From assembly GCA_028289885.1 (NCBI GenBank), contig JAQGKX010000076.1:1-42103 (forward strand): 42,103 nt of DNA, read 5' to 3'. Positions 19,180 through 38,044 of the stretch are shown here, one piece after another; position 1 is the stretch's first letter, and every line of letters begins with the position of its first letter. The position numbers and the translations under genes were made by a program. Under the pieces are notes generated by a model, which worked only from the letters and a program-made list of their open reading frames with translations, did not search any database and had not been told where the DNA came from. This DNA is from Sphingomonadales bacterium. Lineage in GTDB: Bacteria > Pseudomonadota > Alphaproteobacteria > Sphingomonadales > Sphingomonadaceae.

Positions 19180-19509
19180 ATGAACGCGATGAGAACCCTT
19201 TTTGCCAGACCAGCCTTGATGATTTTGGCCCTGCTCAGCTTGCCCGCGGTTCCGCAGGCCTATGCACAGCATCGTCCGACCGATCAGGACGAGGCTTTTC
19301 GCGGGCGTCAGGCCGGGGCTTTGCGGCCATTGCGCGAAATCGAGGGGGGCGTCGTTCCCCAGATGCAACGGCGCGGTGCCGATTATATCGGTGCTGAATA
19401 TGATGGCGGCATGGGCCGTTACCGTTTAAAATTCATGCGTGCTGGCTCGGTTATCTGGGTCGATGTCGATGGTCGTACCGGTGCGGTCGTCGGACGCGCG
19501 GGCGAATAG
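19180..19509 (+). CDS. Small secreted PepSY-like protein
   Basis: Signal peptide 'MRTLFARPALMILALLSLPAVPQAYA' then 'GRYRLKFMRAGSVIWVDVDGRTGAVVGR'. Confidence 0.7.
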   Translation: MNAMRTLFARPALMILALLSLPAVPQAYAQHRPTDQDEAFRGRQAGALRPLREIEGGVVPQMQRRGADYIGAEYDGGMGRYRLKFMRAGSVIWVDVDGRTGAVVGRAGE

Positions 19510-19525
19510 AAACAGGGAGATTGAT

Positions 19526-20188
19526 ATGCGGTTGCTGATCGTCGAAGACGAGCCGACGCTGGGCACCCAGCTCAAGACGTCGCTGGAGGGTGCGGGCTAT
19601 GCTGTGGACCTCGCGACCGATGGCGAGGATGGCCATTATCTCGGCTCGACAGAGAATTACGACGCAATCATCCTCGACCTCGGGCTGCCTGAGATCGACG
19701 GGCTGACCGTGCTCGACCGCTGGCGGAAAGAGGGCCGGACGTTTCCGGTTCTGGTCCTGACCGCGCGCGATAGCTGGTCGGACAAGGTTGCCGGACTCGA
19801 CGCAGGGGCCGACGATTATCTCGCCAAGCCGTTCCAGACCGAGGAGCTGATCGCCCGCCTGCGTGCGCTGATCCGGCGTGCCTCGGGCAATGCATCGTCC
19901 GAAATGACCGCAGGTGATGTCCGGCTGGACACGCGTTCGGGTCGCGTCACACTGGCGGGCGAACCGGTGAAGCTGACGGCGCAGGAATATAAGCTGCTCA
20001 GCTATCTGCTCCATAACAAGGGCAAGGTCGTCAGCCGCACCGAATTGATCGAACATATCTACGATCAGGATTTCGACCGCGATTCGAACACGATCGAAGT
20101 GTTCGTGACGCGTATCCGCAAGAAGCTCGGTCCCGATGTCATCACGACGATCCGGGGACTTGGGTATAGCCTCGATGAACCGGCCTAA
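19526..20188 (+). CDS. OmpR-family response regulator (PhoP-like)
   Basis: 'MRLLIVEDEPTLGTQLKTSLEGAGYAVD', winged-helix C-terminus 'LTAQEYKLLSYLL' and 'NTIEVFVTRIRKKLG'. Confidence 0.93.
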   Translation: MRLLIVEDEPTLGTQLKTSLEGAGYAVDLATDGEDGHYLGSTENYDAIILDLGLPEIDGLTVLDRWRKEGRTFPVLVLTARDSWSDKVAGLDAGADDYLAKPFQTEELIARLRALIRRASGNASSEMTAGDVRLDTRSGRVTLAGEPVKLTAQEYKLLSYLLHNKGKVVSRTELIEHIYDQDFDRDSNTIEVFVTRIRKKLGPDVITTIRGLGYSLDEPA

Positions 20189-20189
20189 T

Positions 20190-20286
20190 CTCCCAACCGC
20201 ATGGCGGAGGGGTTAGGGTTGGACCTTGAGTCTTCCGTCATCATAGAAAAGCCCCACCCCCAGCCCCTCTCGCAAGCGGTTGGGGG
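20190..20286. repeat. REPIN-like inverted repeat spanning the response regulator / histidine kinase junction
   Basis: Left arm 20190-20222 CTCCCAACCGCATGGCGGAGGGGTTAGGGTTGG; right arm 20252-20286 CCCCACCCCCAGCCCCTCTCGCAAGCGGTTGGGGG is its approximate reverse complement. Confidence 0.75.
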
Positions 20287-21637
20287 GAAGAAGAAGGGCA
20301 AGAGTACCGGTTCGCTTTCCCGGCGGATGATCGGCATAGCGGCGGCGTGGATTTTCATCCTGTTGCTGGGCGGCGGCATCGCGCTCGACCGTATTCTCGC
20401 CAATGCCATTACGCAGAATTTCGACGACCAGCTCGACTATGTGCAGACTGCGATGGTCGCGAGTGCGGAGACGGGGCCGGACGGCGAAGTTCGCCTGAAC
20501 CGGCCACTCGGCGACCAGCGTTTCCTTGAGCCGAACTCGGGGCTGTACTGGCAGATCACCGGCAAGAACCAGGAACCGTTCCGGTCGCGCTCGTTGTGGG
20601 ATCATGCGCTGCTTCCCGGCGGCAATCATCACGATACATCGCCGCATTTCTATGACAGCACGCAATTGGGTGGCGAGAAGTTGCGCATCGTCGAACGGGA
20701 TATTCGTTTGCCCCTGTCGCCGACCACATGGCGCTTTCAGGTTGCACAGAGCCGCGATGGGATCGATTCGCAGATACTGACCCTTCGCAAAACGCTCATC
20801 CGCAGCTTCGCACTATTGGCGCTCGGCTTGCTGCTTATGGCGACGTTGCAGACACTCTACGGACTGTGGCCACTCAGGAAATTGCGTCAGGCCATCATCG
20901 CCATGCGTTCGGGGCAGGCTCAACGGATCGAGCAGGAGCGCCTGCCGCAAGAGGTTGCGCCACTCGTCGATGAATTGAATGGCCTGCTCGAACATAATGA
21001 AAAGCAGGCGGAGGAGGCGCGGCGTCACGCCGGAAATCTCGCCCATGCATTGAAGACGCCGCTGACCGTCATCATGAATGCAGCGACTGCGCAGAGTGCC
21101 GACCTGTCCGAAACCGTCATTCGCGAAGCCTCCACCATGCGTCGGCAGGTCGACCATCACCTGGCTCGCGCGCGTGCCGTCGGTCGGCGAGGTCATGCGC
21201 ACAGCCGGGCCGAAGCATGGTTGTCGTTGCAGGCGGTCGAACGTGCGGTTGGCCGGCTTTACCCTCATGTTCGCATCGACATGGCGGGCGAAAAGAGCGC
21301 GTCGGTTCACGTCGAGCGGCAGGATCTCGACGAAATGCTGGGTAATTTGATCGAGAACGCAGCGAAATACGGCGGGGGCAGCGTGTTCGTGACCGTTGTT
21401 CGTGACGGCAAGTTCGTCGAGTTCCAGGTCGAGGACGATGGCAACGGTATCCCCGACGCCGAACGTAATCGCATTTTCGACCGGGGCGTCCGGCTCGACA
21501 GCGGCAAACCCGGTACCGGCCTCGGCCTCGCCATCGTGCGCGACGTGGCCGAAATATACGGTGGATCGGTCAGCGCCGGTGAGAGCGAGGACCTTGGCGG
21601 CCTGCTCGTGCGTTTGCGGCTTCCATTGGTGGCCTGA
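20201..21637 (+). CDS. Sensor histidine kinase (PhoQ-like); start uncertain
   Basis: TM 'MIGIAAAWIFILLLGGGIALDRIL'; phospho-acceptor helix 'HAGNLAHALKTPLTVIMNA'; 'NLIENAAKYGGG', 'GTGLGLAIV'. ATG at 20201 lies in the repeat; an in-frame ATG exists at 20327. Confidence 0.85.
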   Translation: MAEGLGLDLESSVIIEKPHPQPLSQAVGGKKKGKSTGSLSRRMIGIAAAWIFILLLGGGIALDRILANAITQNFDDQLDYVQTAMVASAETGPDGEVRLNRPLGDQRFLEPNSGLYWQITGKNQEPFRSRSLWDHALLPGGNHHDTSPHFYDSTQLGGEKLRIVERDIRLPLSPTTWRFQVAQSRDGIDSQILTLRKTLIRSFALLALGLLLMATLQTLYGLWPLRKLRQAIIAMRSGQAQRIEQERLPQEVAPLVDELNGLLEHNEKQAEEARRHAGNLAHALKTPLTVIMNAATAQSADLSETVIREASTMRRQVDHHLARARAVGRRGHAHSRAEAWLSLQAVERAVGRLYPHVRIDMAGEKSASVHVERQDLDEMLGNLIENAAKYGGGSVFVTVVRDGKFVEFQVEDDGNGIPDAERNRIFDRGVRLDSGKPGTGLGLAIVRDVAEIYGGSVSAGESEDLGGLLVRLRLPLVA

Positions 21638-29801: not shown

Positions 29802-31853
29802 ATGAGCACCACGCCCCCCATCGCCCCGCGCCGTCCGACGACCTCGACCCACCACGGCATCGCGCTGTCGGATGATTACGCATGGCTGCGCGATCCGGGC
29901 TATCCCGAGGTGACCGACGCCGAGATCCTCGATCATCTAAAGGCTGAGAATGTTTATTTCGAGGAGCAGATAGCCCCGCAAAAGCCGCTGATCGAAACGC
30001 TGTTCCAGGAGATGAAGGGTCGCATCAAGGAGGACGATGCTTCAGTTCCCGCCAAGGACGGCGCGTATTTATACTGGCGGGCGTTCGAGATGGGCGGTCA
30101 GTATCGCAAATGGTGGCGCAAGCCCGTGACGGGCGGACCCGACGAACTGATCCTCGACGAACCCGCGCTGGCGGAGGGCCATGAATATTTCCGCGTCGGC
30201 GCGATTTCGCTGACGGAGGATGGCCGGTTCATCGCCTATTCGATCGACGACGATGGCTCCGAACGCTTCACCGCCCGCGTCCGCGATCTCCAGACCGGCG
30301 AAATGCTCCACGACGAAGTGGCGGGTACTATGGGAGCGCTCGTCTGGAACGCCGATGGCTCGGCCTTTCTCTACGGTCAGGTAAACGACCAGTGGCGCAT
30401 CGACACGATCAAATTGCATCGCATCGGCACTCCGGTGGCCGAAGACGTGACCATCTATCATGAGGACGATATCGGCTTTCAATGCGGTGCGGGCATGACC
30501 CACGACCGCAAATGGATCGCAGTCGCGACCGGCGACAACACGACCAGCGAAGTGCGTCTGCTTCCCGCCACCGACCCGCTCGCCGAACCGATCCTGATCC
30601 GCGCGCGCAAGGCTGGCGTGGAATATGATGTCGAGACCCACGGCGGCGACCTGTTCATCGTGACCAACGACATCGACACCAACTTTCGCCTCGTCACCGC
30701 GACTGTGGCGGCGCCCGGCGACTGGCAGGAACGCATCGCTCCCCGACGCGAATTCTATCTCACCGACGTATCGTGTTTCGCCGATTTCTTCGTGGTCGAG
30801 GGTCGCGAAAATGGCCTCGACCAGATCGAGATTCACGACTACGCGGGTGGCCCGTCGAAGCGTATCGCCTTTCCGGAAGCAAGCTACACCGCCGGTTTGG
30901 ACGAGAACCCCGAATACGCTGTCGATACGCTGCGCCTGTCCTATGATTCGATGGTCACGCCCGATCGCATCACTGCTTATGACGTCGCCACCGCCGCGAT
31001 GACGACGCTGAAAGAACAGGTCATTCCCTCGGGCTATGACGGCGGCAAATACACGACAGAGCGCGTCGAGATCACCGCCCGCGACGGCACGAAGGTTCCG
31101 GTCTCGATCGTCTATGCCCGGGACTTTCCAAAGGACGGCACCCACCCGCTCTATCTCTACGGCTATGGCGCATACGGCATCGCTATCCCGCCCAGTTTCT
31201 CGGTCACGCGGATCAGCCTGCTCGATCGCGGGTTTGCCTTTGCCATCGCGCATATCCGTGGCGGCGACGACCTTGGCCAGCAATGGCAACTCGATGGCAA
31301 GCTCGAAAAGCGGTGGAATGCGTTTAGCGATTTCGTCGATGTCGGACGCGGCCTGTGCGAACTCGGCTTCTCCTCTCCCGGTAAAGTCTGCGCGGCGGGC
31401 GGTTCGGCGGGCGGCGAATTGATGGGCGTCGTCATAAACACCGACCCCGATCTGTTCGGAGCGGTTGCCGCACACGTGCCCTTCGTCGATGTCCTGAACA
31501 CCATGCTCGATGACACACTGCCGCTGACGCCCGGCGAGTGGCCGGAATGGGGCAACCCGATCACCGACAAGGCCGCGTTCGACCTGATCCGCGATTATTC
31601 CCCTTATGACAATGTGAAGGCGCAGGCTTATCCGCCGCTGCTGATCACTGCGGGCCTGACCGATCCGCGCGTAACCTATTGGGAACCGGCAAAATGGTGC
31701 GCGAAACTTCGGGAACTCAAGACCAACGACAACGTCCTGTTGCTGAAGACCAACATGGGGGCGGGCCACGGCGGCAAGTCAGGGCGCTTTGAATCATTGC
31801 GAGAGACGGCAGAGGAATTTGCATTCTTCCTATGGCAAGCGGGGACGGATTAG
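29802..31853 (+). CDS. S9 prolyl oligopeptidase family (oligopeptidase B-like)
   Basis: 683 aa; 'YGYGAYG', nucleophile elbow 'AAGGSAGGELMG', catalytic His region 'NMGAGHGGKSGR'. Confidence 0.92.
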   Translation: MSTTPPIAPRRPTTSTHHGIALSDDYAWLRDPGYPEVTDAEILDHLKAENVYFEEQIAPQKPLIETLFQEMKGRIKEDDASVPAKDGAYLYWRAFEMGGQYRKWWRKPVTGGPDELILDEPALAEGHEYFRVGAISLTEDGRFIAYSIDDDGSERFTARVRDLQTGEMLHDEVAGTMGALVWNADGSAFLYGQVNDQWRIDTIKLHRIGTPVAEDVTIYHEDDIGFQCGAGMTHDRKWIAVATGDNTTSEVRLLPATDPLAEPILIRARKAGVEYDVETHGGDLFIVTNDIDTNFRLVTATVAAPGDWQERIAPRREFYLTDVSCFADFFVVEGRENGLDQIEIHDYAGGPSKRIAFPEASYTAGLDENPEYAVDTLRLSYDSMVTPDRITAYDVATAAMTTLKEQVIPSGYDGGKYTTERVEITARDGTKVPVSIVYARDFPKDGTHPLYLYGYGAYGIAIPPSFSVTRISLLDRGFAFAIAHIRGGDDLGQQWQLDGKLEKRWNAFSDFVDVGRGLCELGFSSPGKVCAAGGSAGGELMGVVINTDPDLFGAVAAHVPFVDVLNTMLDDTLPLTPGEWPEWGNPITDKAAFDLIRDYSPYDNVKAQAYPPLLITAGLTDPRVTYWEPAKWCAKLRELKTNDNVLLLKTNMGAGHGGKSGRFESLRETAEEFAFFLWQAGTD

Positions 31854-31866
31854 GCCTTACCCACAA

Positions 31867-31932
31867 TGTCATAATACCGTCACAAATCCGCAACGGATTC
31901 GTCACGAAAACTGCCTGTGACTGTCACAATCC
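31867..31932 (+). promoter_or_regulatory. Array of PhoB-box-like half sites with 11-bp phasing
   Basis: GTCAtaatacc (31868), GTCAcaaatcc (31879), gcaacggattc (31890), GTCAcgaaaac (31901), tgcctgtgact (31912), GTCAcaatcc (31923), upstream of porin-pst genes. Confidence 0.75.
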
Positions 31933-31985
31933 CCCGCTACTGACTCGCTGGCCGGGCGATCTGCTCGCGACTCTAGGGGGTTTCA

Positions 31986-33503
31986 ATGTCAATTTCTCGC
32001 CTGCTGCTTGGTGCAGCAAGTCTTTCCACACTCGCATTCGCAATGCCTGCCATCGCGAAGCCCGTGCATCATGCCGCTGCCAAGAAATCAGGTGGAGAAT
32101 CGGCTGAGCTGAAGGCCTTGCGCGAACAGGTCGAGATGCTGACCGCCCGCCTTGACGCACAGGAAGCCGTCACGCTTGGCCAGCAGAATGCCACGCGCGA
32201 CGTTCAGGCGCAGGCTGCTGCTGCAACCGCACAGGCCCAGGCTGCTCAGGCAAGCGCAGTTACCGCCGCCGCTGCTGTTCCCGCTCAGGTAAAGACCGCC
32301 ATGGCCGCCAATGCGCCAAAGGCTTCGCCTGCCGCATGGTTCAACGACACATCGATTTCGGGTCGCATGTATTTCAACGCCAGCACCATCAACCAGCGTC
32401 TGAACGGGCCAAAGACCGCCCAGAGCGGCACCGGCTTCAACATCAAGCGCTTCTACCTCGGCGTCGATCATAAGTTCGACAGCATGTTCTCGGCCAATTT
32501 GACCATGGACGTCGCCAACGTCGTCGGTCGTACATCGGCCGGTAACTTCTCGGGCAACACAATCGTGCTCAACCCGGGCACTGTTGGTACTCCAGGCGTT
32601 CCGATAGGTATTCCAGGTGCTCCGATAGGTACTCCAGGCACGCCCGCGACGCTGACGCAGAGCGACTATGGCCTCGTCGGTCGCGGTTTCTACATCAAGA
32701 AGGCGTATCTGCAGGCCAAGTTCAATCCGGCACTCATCGTTCGTCTGGGTTCGGCCGATCTTCCATGGGTTCCCTATGTTGAGGGCGTCTACGGTTATCG
32801 CCACATCGAGAACACGATCGCCGATCGCACCAGCTTCGCAACATCGGCTGATTGGGGCGTCCACGTTCTTGGCGACCTCGCAGGCGGCATCGTGTCGTAT
32901 CAGGTCTCGGTCGTCGACGGTGGTGGCTATCGCAACGTCAAGGTTACCAAGGCCGTCGATGTCGAAGGTCGCGTATCGGTTGCCTATAAGGGCTTCTTCG
33001 GTGCGGTCGGTGGTTATACCGGGAAGCTCGGCAACGATGTCCAGAACACACCGGTTTTCCACACTGCCAGCCGACTCGACGGCCTGATCGGGTATAAGAA
33101 CAAGCTGTTCACGGTCGGTGGCGAGTATTTCTACGCCAAGAATTATCAGAGCAGCAACACGCCAGCCTATATCACTTCGGCTGTGCTGACCGACAAGGCA
33201 GAGGGCTATTCTGGCTTCGCTTCGGTCAACTTCATGCCGAAGTGGAGCGCCTTCGGACGCTACGACCATATGAAGCCAACGAAGGACGCCTTGCCGAACC
33301 GCAAGGACGATTATTTCAACGTCGGTATCCAGTATAGCCCGGCAAAGATCGTCGATCTGGCGTTCGTGTACAAGCGCGACACCGTCAACGGTGGAATCGT
33401 CAACACGTCGAACGGCAACTTCGGCCTGGCGAACCCTTCGGCTGGTCCAAACAACCGTGGCACCTACGACGAGTTCGGTCTTTTCGGCCAGTTCCGTTTC
33501 TAA
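31986..33503 (+). CDS. Phosphate-selective-type porin (OprO/OprP-like)
   Basis: 505 aa; signal peptide, N-terminal coiled-coil 'ELKALREQVEMLTARLDAQEA', beta-rich body, terminal 'EFGLFGQFRF'; first gene of a pst cluster. Confidence 0.88.
   Translation: MSISRLLLGAASLSTLAFAMPAIAKPVHHAAAKKSGGESAELKALREQVEMLTARLDAQEAVTLGQQNATRDVQAQAAAATAQAQAAQASAVTAAAAVPAQVKTAMAANAPKASPAAWFNDTSISGRMYFNASTINQRLNGPKTAQSGTGFNIKRFYLGVDHKFDSMFSANLTMDVANVVGRTSAGNFSGNTIVLNPGTVGTPGVPIGIPGAPIGTPGTPATLTQSDYGLVGRGFYIKKAYLQAKFNPALIVRLGSADLPWVPYVEGVYGYRHIENTIADRTSFATSADWGVHVLGDLAGGIVSYQVSVVDGGGYRNVKVTKAVDVEGRVSVAYKGFFGAVGGYTGKLGNDVQNTPVFHTASRLDGLIGYKNKLFTVGGEYFYAKNYQSSNTPAYITSAVLTDKAEGYSGFASVNFMPKWSAFGRYDHMKPTKDALPNRKDDYFNVGIQYSPAKIVDLAFVYKRDTVNGGIVNTSNGNFGLANPSAGPNNRGTYDEFGLFGQFRF
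32586..32648 (+). repeat. 21-bp tandem minisatellite inside the porin gene (3 copies)
   Basis: GGTACTCCAGGCGTTCCGATA / GGTATTCCAGGTGCTCCGATA / GGTACTCCAGGCACGCCCGCG, coding GTPGVPI-GIPGAPI-GTPGTPA. Confidence 0.9.
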
Positions 33504-33554
33504 TATCTAACCGTCAACAGCGGCGCGGTGTGCCGCTCACAATGGGAAAACAAT

Positions 33555-34589
33555 ATGTATAAAAAATTCATCTTGGCGTTCGCAGGACTGGCAGTTGCCG
33601 GTGCTGCGGTCGCTGGCGACATCGCCGGTGCCGGCGCTTCGTTCCCGGCTCCCGTCTATGCACGCTGGGCTGAAATGTACCGTGCTTCGACGGGTTCGAA
33701 GCTCAACTACCAGGCCATCGGTTCGGGCGGCGGCATCAAGCAGATCAAGGCATCGACCGTCGATTTCGGCGCCAGCGACAAGCCTTTGAAGCCTGCCGAT
33801 CTTCAGGCTGCCGGCCTGTATCAGTTCCCGACGGTCGTTGGCGGCGTCGTGCCGATCATCAACCTGCCGGGCCTCGCCGCCGGTCGTATCAAGCTGACGG
33901 GTGCCGTCCTCGGTGACATCTTCCTCGGCAAGGTCAGCCGCTGGAACGATCCTGCAATTCAGGGTCTTAACGGCCATCTGAAACTGCCCGGCACGCCAAT
34001 CACCGTCGTCCATCGTTCGGACGGTTCCGGTACGTCGTTCCTGTTCACCACCTATCTGTCGATGAAGAACCCCGAATGGGCTGCCAAGGTTGGCGGCAAC
34101 GATGCTGTTCAGTGGCCAGTCGGTCTTGGTGGCAAGGGCAATGACGGCGTCTCGGCGTTCGTGAAGCAGACGGTTGGTTCGATCGGCTATGTCGAGTTCG
34201 CCTACGCCAAGCAGAACAAGGCGGCCTATGCCTTGGTCGGCAACAAGGCCAACCGTTTCCCACCACCAGTAACCGCCAGCTTCTCGGCTGCCGCTGCCGG
34301 TGCGCAGTGGAACAAGGCTCCGGGCAATTACCTGCTCCTGCTCGATCAGGCTGGTCCGAACGCATGGCCAATCACCGGTGCGACGTTCATTCTGGTTCAC
34401 AAGAACCAGTCGAACGCCGAAACCGGTGCTTCGGTCCTGAAGTTCTTCGACTGGGCCTACAAGACGGGTGACGCTTCGGCTCTCGCACTCGACTATGTTC
34501 CCCTGCCAGCCGCCGTGAAAACACTGGTGCGCAGCCAGTGGGCATCGAACGTCACATCGGGCGGCAAGCCTGTGTACGTAGCAAAATAA
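33555..34589 (+). CDS. pstS: Phosphate ABC transporter substrate-binding protein
   Basis: 'MYKKFILAFAGLAVAGAAVAGDIAGAGASFPAPVYARWAEMY', 'GSGGGIKQIKASTVDFGASDKPL', 'VHRSDGSGTSFLFTTYL'. Confidence 0.96.
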   Translation: MYKKFILAFAGLAVAGAAVAGDIAGAGASFPAPVYARWAEMYRASTGSKLNYQAIGSGGGIKQIKASTVDFGASDKPLKPADLQAAGLYQFPTVVGGVVPIINLPGLAAGRIKLTGAVLGDIFLGKVSRWNDPAIQGLNGHLKLPGTPITVVHRSDGSGTSFLFTTYLSMKNPEWAAKVGGNDAVQWPVGLGGKGNDGVSAFVKQTVGSIGYVEFAYAKQNKAAYALVGNKANRFPPPVTASFSAAAAGAQWNKAPGNYLLLLDQAGPNAWPITGATFILVHKNQSNAETGASVLKFFDWAYKTGDASALALDYVPLPAAVKTLVRSQWASNVTSGGKPVYVAK

Positions 34590-34644: not shown

Positions 34645-35604
34645 ATGACAGCAACCGCCTTTCCCGCGCTTCGAAGTTCAGCTTCGAAAGCCCCCGGCGC
34701 TACCAGCGAAATGCTGTTCCGCTGGGCCTGTGCATCCGCAGCGACGCTGCTGCTCGCGACGCTCTCGGGTGTCGTCATCAGCCTCGCGATTGGAGGGTGG
34801 CCTGCTTTCCGCACCTTCGGTTTCGGCTTCATCACCTCATCGGTCTGGGACCCGGTAGGCGAGGTGTACGGCGCTGCCGGTCCGATCGCCGGTACTCTGA
34901 TCACCGCTTTCCTCGCATTGCTCATGGCCCTGCCGCTTGCGATGGGTGCCTCGATCTTCCTGGTCGAATTTGCTCCCGCCCGCCTTTCCAAACCGATCGC
35001 CATGGCCATCGAACTGCTCGCGGGCATCCCCTCGATCGTCTACGGCATGTGGGGCCTGTTCGTCTTTGCCCCATGGTTTGCCGAACACGTTCAGATGCCT
35101 CTCGTCATGGCGGCTGAACCGCGAAGCTGGCTCGAATCCATCGTCAAGGGCGTCCCGAACGGCGCGAACATCTCGACCGCTTCGATGATCCTCGCGATCA
35201 TGATCCTGCCCTATATGGCGGCGGTCTTTCGCGAACTCCTCCTGACGGTTCCCGCACAGGTCCGCGAAGCCGGATACGGCCTCGGCTGCACCCCCTTCGA
35301 GGTCATGAAATCGGTCACTGTTCCCTACGTCGGGCAGGGCATGATCGGCGTCATTATGTTGGGCCTCGGTCGCGCGCTCGGCGAAACGATGGCGGTGACG
35401 TTCATCATCGGTAACGCGCATAGTTTCCCGAAGTCGATGTTCGACTCCGGATCGACGATTGCGTCCACCATCGCCAACGAGTTCGCCGAAGCCTCCAGTC
35501 CGGAACATGTTTCGGCATTGATCGCGCTCGGCCTCGTGCTGTTCGTCATCACCTTCATCGTGCTGGCAATCGCCCGCCTCCTCCTCGCTAGAGCGAAGCA
35601 CTGA
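34645..35604 (+). CDS. pstC: Phosphate ABC transporter permease
   Basis: 319 aa, multi-TM, 'ELLAGIPSIVYGMWGLFVFAPW', 'GLGRALGETMAVTFIIGN'. Confidence 0.95.
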   Translation: MTATAFPALRSSASKAPGATSEMLFRWACASAATLLLATLSGVVISLAIGGWPAFRTFGFGFITSSVWDPVGEVYGAAGPIAGTLITAFLALLMALPLAMGASIFLVEFAPARLSKPIAMAIELLAGIPSIVYGMWGLFVFAPWFAEHVQMPLVMAAEPRSWLESIVKGVPNGANISTASMILAIMILPYMAAVFRELLLTVPAQVREAGYGLGCTPFEVMKSVTVPYVGQGMIGVIMLGLGRALGETMAVTFIIGNAHSFPKSMFDSGSTIASTIANEFAEASSPEHVSALIALGLVLFVITFIVLAIARLLLARAKH

Positions 35605-35605
35605 T

Positions 35606-36460
35606 ATGGCCAAGGAATTCGGCATAGCCCGCGCGCGCAGTCGTCGCGCCATCAACGCCATCTTCGTCGGGGCCTGTGGCTTCGCGACCTTCATCGCACT
35701 CGGCGCGCTGGTCATGATCCTCTGGTCGCTTGTCATCCAGGGCATCGGCGGTCTCGACTCCAAGATATTTACCGAAAGCCAGCCTGCTCCGGGTTCGGAG
35801 GGCGGATTGTCCAACGCGATTACCGGTTCGCTGATCATGTGCGGTCTCGGCATGGTCATCGCGCTGATCGTCGGCATCCTCGCCGGGACATGGCTGTCTG
35901 AATATGGCGGCAAGACGCGCTATGGCCAGATCGTCCGTTTCATGAACGACGTGCTGTTGTCGGCACCGTCGATCCTGATCGGCCTGTTCGTGTACGGCAT
36001 CCTCGTCGCACCGTTCCACGGCTTTTCGGCACTCGCCGGTGCCGTCGCGCTGGGCATCCTCGCTGTCCCCGTTGTCACGCGCACGACCGAGGACATCCTC
36101 AATCTCCAGCCGAACACGCTTCGGGAAGCTGGCATGGCTTTGGGAGCAACGCGCGCCTTCGTCACGCGTACGATCATCTGGCGCGCGGCGGCGGCTGGTC
36201 TCGTCACCGCAGGCCTGCTCGGCTTCGCGCGCATCTCGGGTGAGACCGCACCATTGCTGTTCACCTCACTCGGCAATCAGTTCTTCAGCGTAAACCTCAG
36301 CCAGCCAATGGCTTCCCTGCCGACCACCATCTTCCAGTTCGCCCTGTCGGCGTATGACGACTGGCGCCGTCTCGCATGGGTCGGTGCTCTGCTCATCGCT
36401 ACGGCGGTTCTCTCCATCAATATCATCGGGCGCATCTTGTCCCGGGAAAGTCACCGCTGA
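35606..36460 (+). CDS. pstA: Phosphate ABC transporter permease
   Basis: 284 aa, multi-TM, '[16 protein letters not shown]', '[18 protein letters not shown]'. Confidence 0.95.
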
Positions 36461-37329
36461 TGAACTTCGACATCCAATCCGTGGACACGGACGAGCCGGT
36501 GATGGTCGCCCCAACCGGCGAACTGATCCTCGAAACCAAGAACCTCGACTTTTTCTACGGCAAGACCCAGTCGCTTTTCAGCGTCAATCTGCCGGTCGAG
36601 CGCAACCGCATCACCGCGTTGATCGGACCATCGGGTTGCGGCAAATCGACATTGCTCCGTGCGCTCAACCGCATTTACGACCTGTATCCCGGGCAGCATT
36701 CAACCGGTCGCGTGCTTCTTGAAGGTGAGGACGTGCTGACCGACCGTGCGAGCATCGCCCGGCTAAAGGCTCGCGATGGCAGCACCGATGTCGTCCAGTC
36801 GAACGTCGATCTTGCCCGCCTGCGCGCGCGCATCGGCATGGTGTTCCAGAAACCGACGCCATTCCCGATGTCGATCTACGACAATGTCGCGTTCGGCGTG
36901 AAGCTGTATGAGCGCAAGTCGAAGGCCGACATGGACGTCATCGTCGAACGCTCGCTGACCCGCGCGGCGCTCTGGGGTGAAGTGAAGGACAAGCTATCGG
37001 CATCGGGCCTCAGCCTTTCGGGTGGCCAGCAGCAGCGCCTGTGCGTTGCGCGCGGCATTGCGGTCGAACCTGAAATTCTTCTGCTCGATGAGCCAGCTTC
37101 GGCACTCGATCCGATCTCGACGGCGAAACTGGAAGAAACGCTGATGGCGTTGAAGTCCGATCTTACCATCGTGATCGTGACGCACAACCTTCAGCAGGCG
37201 GCACGTCTGTCGGATCACACCGGCTTCATGTTCCTCGGCAAGATGATCGAATTCGGTCCGACGCCCGATCTCTTTTCGAACCCGCGCGTCAAACGCACGC
37301 GCGATTATGTCACCGGCCGGTTCGGCTAA
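36460..37329 (+). CDS. pstB: Phosphate ABC transporter ATP-binding protein
   Basis: ATG overlaps the pstA stop (TGATG); '[24 protein letters not shown]', '[24 protein letters not shown]', '[29 protein letters not shown]'. Confidence 0.96.
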
Positions 37330-37342
37330 GGGAGCGATTCAG

Positions 37343-38044
37343 ATGGTAGAAGACACCCGCCACACGCTCCACGCGTTTGACGACGACCTCGATGCCTTGC
37401 GCGCCTCGGTCGAGAAAATGGGCGAACTGGTCGAAGTGGCAATCGCCTCTGCCATGAAGGCCGTCGCTTCGGTCGATAGTAATGCCGCGAGCCAGATCGT
37501 CACCAGCGATTTGGTGATCGACCAGCTTCAGCTAGGCATCGAACGCGACATCGTCCGCCTCCTCGCGATCCGTGCGCCGTTGGCCGATGATCTCCGCGAC
37601 GTCATCGCTGCGCTGAAAATCGCCGGCGTCCTCGAACGTATCGGCGACTATGCAAAGAACATTGCTCGCCGCGTGTCGGTACTCGGCGATATCAGCGCGA
37701 TCGACAGCCGGGGCATCGTCGCCAGCATGGGAAAATCGGTCGTCACACTCGTTCACGACGCCGTTTCGGCCTTCGCCAAGCGCGATGCAGAAGCCGCCCG
37801 CGATATCGGCGAGCGTGACCAGCATATCGACCAGCTTTACAATGAACTGTCGTTGGCCCTCGTTGCCCAGATGATGAAGGACCCGACCACCATAGGCGTC
37901 TGTACGCATCTCTTATCGGTTGCGAAGGGTCTCGAGCGTATCGGCGACCATGCCACCAACCTTGCCGAGATGGTCTATTTTGCCGCCGTCGGCACGGAAA
38001 TGCCCGAACGAATTCGTTGGTTGGCGACTGAAAAGGTTGGCTGA
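37343..38044 (+). CDS. phoU: Phosphate signalling complex protein PhoU
   Basis: 'HTLHAFDDDLDALRASVEKMGELVEVAI', 'ERIGDYAKNIARR', 'ERIGDHATNLAEMVYF'. Confidence 0.95.
   Translation: MVEDTRHTLHAFDDDLDALRASVEKMGELVEVAIASAMKAVASVDSNAASQIVTSDLVIDQLQLGIERDIVRLLAIRAPLADDLRDVIAALKIAGVLERIGDYAKNIARRVSVLGDISAIDSRGIVASMGKSVVTLVHDAVSAFAKRDAEAARDIGERDQHIDQLYNELSLALVAQMMKDPTTIGVCTHLLSVAKGLERIGDHATNLAEMVYFAAVGTEMPERIRWLATEKVG

Follow-up and report, generated by a model that had tools for sequence, protein, structure and literature searches.

An array of 11-bp direct repeats ahead of a porin gene and pstSCAB-phoU in a sphingomonad genome is very probably the PhoB-dependent promoter of this gene row, a reading to which we assign a probability of about 0.93 from sequence evidence. 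The original prediction had named these repeats as PhoB-type, and the identification was upheld by their register, their presence in relatives, the placement of the -10 element and the recognition helix of the genomic PhoB. The window, that is, the whole 42-kb stretch analyzed, is contig C84 of a 3.08-Mb draft genome (211 contigs, 84% complete), and, judged from the porin gene, its closest named relative is one from a Sphingomonas sp. (L118, a MAG). Scored with a simple CTGTCAY weight table set by hand, on which the weak and random calls depend, the array is six positions: four strong (units 1, 2, 4 and 6, none with p above 0.0015), one weak and one that is not recognizable (Table 1).

Table 1. 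Features of the array and its operon, with coordinates in the window. P values are from the hand-set table; G001 and G006 are two genomes of the same genus.
Feature	Coordinates	Strand	Remarks
S9 prolyl oligopeptidase gene	29802-31853		borders the array's intergenic region on the side away from the porin
Unit 1, ATGTCATaata	31866-31876	+	strong; score 7.5, p=0.0015; GTCA retained in G001 but not in G006
Unit 2, CCGTCACaaat	31877-31887	+	strong; p=0.0006; GTCA retained in G001, replaced by a weak CAGCAAC in G006
Unit 3, CCGCAACggat	31888-31898	+	weak; p=0.06; CTGAAAT, p=0.03, in G001 and G006
Unit 4, TCGTCACgaaa	31899-31909	+	strong; GTCA present in 3/3 species
Slot 5, ACTGCCTgtga	31910-31920	+	right spacing, not recognizable as a Pho unit; p=0.49, 0.29 and 0.37 (window and two relatives)
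Unit 6, CTGTCACaatc	31921-31931	+	strong, promoter-proximal; full CTGTCAC consensus, p=0.0001 in 3/3 species
Putative -10 element, TACTGA (TAN3A)	31938-31943	+	exactly 10 nt past the CTGTCAC 7-mer of unit 6
Porin-like outer-membrane protein gene	31986-33503	+	heads the operon; no Pfam match; low-confidence beta-barrel model
pstS	33552-34589	+	NF008171 and TIGR00975, both over cut-off
pstC	34645-35604	+	TIGR02138 over cut-off
pstA	35606-36460	+	TIGR00974 over cut-off
pstB	36460-37329	+	TIGR00972 over cut-off
phoU	37340-38044	+	TIGR02135 over cut-off; ends the same-strand gene row

A single 11-bp register upstream of the transporter genes

GTCA cores lie on the forward strand at 31868, 31879, 31901 and 31923, at offsets of 0, 11, 33 and 55 and thus in one 11-bp register, as predicted. 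When periods from 5 to 20 were compared across the 132-bp intergenic region (31854-31985), 11 alone placed more than one GTCA in register, and it placed all four. Such short cores are frequent, with 183 GTCA on the forward strand of the window, and a run of them might be thought an accident of intergenic sequence; that reading is refuted by dinucleotide shuffles of the region, which gave three GTCA in phase in 0 of 20,000 cases, and by conservation of the array in relatives, leaving chance a vanishingly small probability. On both strands of the window, this array was the only cluster of at least three in-register GTCA, and in pattern searches, by which its uniqueness in the genome was judged, the arrangement of units 1, 2 and 4 had one exact match in 3.08 Mb. 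Where a Pho box calls for at least two near-CTGTCAY units at 11-bp steps, the array offers five in a single register, four of them strong and one weak.

The predicted architecture of six half-sites and three dimers was overstated, since at most five positions are recognizable. Two degenerate units had been proposed, at 31890 and 31912: the first, our unit 3, holds up as a plausible weak site, whereas the second, our slot 5, is random-like in the window and scores as random in all three species compared.

By position, the target of the array would be phosphate acquisition, since pstSCAB-phoU, each gene past its NCBIfam cut-off, lies downstream. Intergene gaps are about 1-55 bp and no terminator-like site was found between the genes, so that co-transcription of porin and transporter is plausible.

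A search of the genome with a 17-bp Pho-box pattern returned 35 sites against 10 with a reversed control and is too noisy for listing a regulon. We do not claim any of its three exact matches as Pho sites: one adjoins ppk and lies inside a gene of opposite orientation, one stands about 0.8 kb ahead of a TonB-receptor-like gene, and the third is near a methyltransferase-like gene.

Conservation of the units and of the -10 spacing

Conservation of spacing in relatives, proposed as a check by the original prediction, was found in full in one same-genus genome and for the downstream half in another. In G001, whose porin is 82% identical, a 66-bp array of the same layout stands ahead of the same operon and reads GAGTCATATAG TTGTCATATAT CTGAAATACAG GTGTCATGCGA TCAGCGTTCGG CTGTCATAATC; the core bases of units 1, 2, 4 and 6 are identical to those of the window at 16/16 positions, against 18/42 at the other array positions. 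G006 retains units 4 and 6 at full consensus (8/8 core bases), with units 1 to 3 weak and slot 5 degenerate. In this small sample of three species, conservation is highest at units 4 and 6; unit 3 bears a weak likeness to a Pho site in every case, and slot 5 keeps its spacing and never forms a recognizable unit.

The distal units are dispensable within the genus, since G006 has neither a good unit 1 nor a good unit 2. They might even be relics, now decaying, of an array that was once longer, with units 4 and 6 (and slot 5 between them) alone acting, as the loss of consensus at units 1 and 2 in G006 and the presence of only two or three units in most family promoters would allow. We consider this unlikely, though it deserves real weight: in G001 the GTCA cores of both units 1 and 2 are intact (8/8 bases) despite low identity outside the cores, a retention that neutral decay would not favor, and units 1-4 replicate the series of the E. 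coli pstS promoter.

The wider family gives a measure of array length. Among 52 family pst promoters (loci L035-L045 and L077-L116), in which an anchor unit was picked by score without use of the -10 element, an in-register unit occurred at offset -11 in 43, against 0.6 at control offsets, a count inflated by an anchor rule that favors a neighbor at -11 or -22. At -22 and -33 the counts were 12 (control, 1.4) and 7 (control, 2.2), with no clear excess farther upstream. On this measure an array of six slots is long, two or three units being usual.

The same promoters supply an independent signal downstream, independent because the anchor units were chosen without the -10. A TA dinucleotide follows the last unit at a gap of 10 nt in 31 of the 52, and in at most 5 at any other gap from 0 to 30. 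The window conforms, with CTGTCAC, 10 nt and then the putative TACTGA, and the corresponding hexamers are TAGGGA in G006 and TAGGAA in G001. This is the rule known from E. coli, where a -10 of the TAN3T/A type sits 10 bp downstream of the Pho boxes (PMC1906773). The last 6 bp of slot 5 occupy the nominal -35 position and read CTGTGA, which is not TTGACA-like, and a consensus scan found no ordinary sigma70 promoter at this place, as would be expected of a promoter that depends on an activator. Throughout the family, the pst -10 is often TAGGGA, TAAGCG or TAGAGG, far from TATAAT.

Long arrays also occur elsewhere. The porin promoter at L100, which is divergent from pstS in another genus, carries five Pho units in register and then one more at an offset of 12 bp, and the porin promoter at L039 has a similar long array; as read from their sequences, they represent a second long array whose phasing is different. 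In most relatives with a window-type porin, the porin gene diverges from pstS, and a porin gene running in the same direction as pst was seen in the genus of the window alone.

The regulator, a proposed mechanism and known Pho operators

The genome encodes one protein above the NCBIfam cut-off for PhoB (C162:15483-16154; 334 bits against a cut-off of 296), in the gene order phoR-phoU-phoB. The recognition helix of this protein, RTVDVHIRRLRKA, has the same sequence as in the E. coli PhoB chain 1gxp, from the PhoB-DNA complex, and the protein thus has the conserved DNA-reading helix expected of a cognate PhoB. At least eight regulators of the OmpR/PhoB type are present in the genome, including one in the window at 19526-20176, and direct repeats are common in the family, so another member might be thought to bind the array. 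We regard this as extremely unlikely: only the C162 protein scores above the PhoB cut-off and has the TGTCA-reading E. coli helix, which was found in none of the other alignable OmpR-type regulators of the genome (for two, no useful alignment was obtained). In addition, the array stands ahead of pst genes, and units of the same kind recur at the phoR-phoU-phoB locus.

At that locus, three in-register Pho units, CTGTCACGAAA ACATCATGAAA CTGTAACATTA, lie between phoR and the second phoU (L046:2698-2730), and their position upstream of phoU-phoB suggests feedback on these two genes. There is one phoU gene at each pho/pst locus, and thus two in the genome. The regulator gene in the window is followed by a 478-aa ORF, probably a sensor kinase, the pair spanning 19439-21637.

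Under phosphate limitation, PhoR would phosphorylate PhoB, and PhoB~P subunits would then assemble head-to-tail on the 11-bp repeats, as PhoB does in E. coli (PMC4415409, PMC10294691). Every component that this mechanism requires is present. The subunit at unit 6, with its upstream partner, would substitute for the missing -35 contact and recruit sigma70 RNA polymerase to the TACTGA element ten bp downstream. Units 1 and 2, and the weak unit 3 together with unit 4, could load additional PhoB dimers; the upstream units would probably increase occupancy or reduce the level of PhoB~P needed. The converse, that the extra units restrain the promoter by, for example, holding or misplacing PhoB, finds a precedent in weak PhoB sites that repress, such as the low-affinity repression site of the E. 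coli phoB promoter (PMC6194859). In that promoter the repressing site is antisense and overlaps the -10, whereas all units of the array lie upstream of the -10, on a single strand and in activating register, which makes restraint very unlikely.

With slot 5 random-like, the promoter-proximal dimer would have just one good half-site. Extending this to the whole array, with positions 3 and 5 degenerate and 2, 4 and 6 strong, each dimer of a 22-bp-step array might combine one reading and one non-reading half-site, giving chains of half-specified dimers built largely by protein contacts. We hold this to be a doubtful proposal; if true, it would amount to an operator grammar unlike that of canonical paired half-sites. 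The alternation of strong and degenerate slots in three species is the unusual point of the array, and it bears on how much sequence is needed per PhoB subunit.

One close counterpart of the array is the E. coli pstS promoter, which stands ahead of the same transporter. Units 1-4 follow the same series of strong, strong, weak and strong at 11-bp steps, the weak third unit of E. coli (CTTACAT) corresponding to unit 3, and the distance from the last strong 7-mer to the -10 (TATTTT in E. coli) is likewise 10 nt. The window differs in adding a 22-bp step, composed of the random-like slot 5 and the strong unit 6, before the -10, and in having a porin rather than pstS as its first gene. The E. coli ugp promoter (reviewed in PMC4415409) similarly has more than one Pho box ahead of a PhoB-activated transporter operon, although its genes differ and the likeness is one of description rather than of base-by-base comparison. 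Complex PhoP operators in Streptomyces (glpQ1, glpQ2 and pitH2; PMC7866108) mix poorly conserved with core units in sets of four or five 11-nt direct repeats, under a different regulator, PhoP, and with the consensus GTTCACC. Cyanobacterial SphR targets (PMC1906773) have three or more tandem 8-bp repeats, each with a 3-bp linker, again an 11-bp step, but with the consensus CTTAACCT. Since mixed multi-unit Pho operators have already been described (PMC7866108, PMC1906773), the array is not new in kind and amounts to a textbook control element in enlarged form.

Literature searches returned no experimental Pho-box work in sphingomonads. The present analysis places a sphingomonad pst operon, headed by an otherwise unclassified porin, under predicted PhoB control with good confidence, and it yields a promoter rule for these bacteria, namely a last CTGTCAY-like unit, 10 nt and TA, that should be useful for predicting the Pho regulon.

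The porin at the head of the operon

The first gene product had no match to a Pfam family, including PF07396 (Porin_O_P, the family of OprP and OprO); a distant relative at 33% identity (L101) matched Porin_O_P with E=7e-4, narrowly missing the cut-off. A sequence search against solved structures found nothing for the window protein. Its structural model, of low confidence (mean pLDDT 59), comprises an N-terminal helix and a beta-barrel and matches many porins, with OprP at rank 5 and OprO also among the matches. Identification as an outer-membrane porin is thereby supported, and phosphate selectivity might be supposed from genomic context only.

In G006, the gene at the same promoter position ahead of the pst operon (L035:2516-4153) encodes a different, 545-aa porin-like protein that has only residues 16-107 in common with the window porin, a comparison that suggests exchange of the porin body ahead of a conserved pst operon. 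The window porin and its relatives (L118-L125) form a Sphingomonadales porin family that has no Pfam model and usually adjoins pstS, and in which an alanine-rich helical N-terminal region precedes the barrel.
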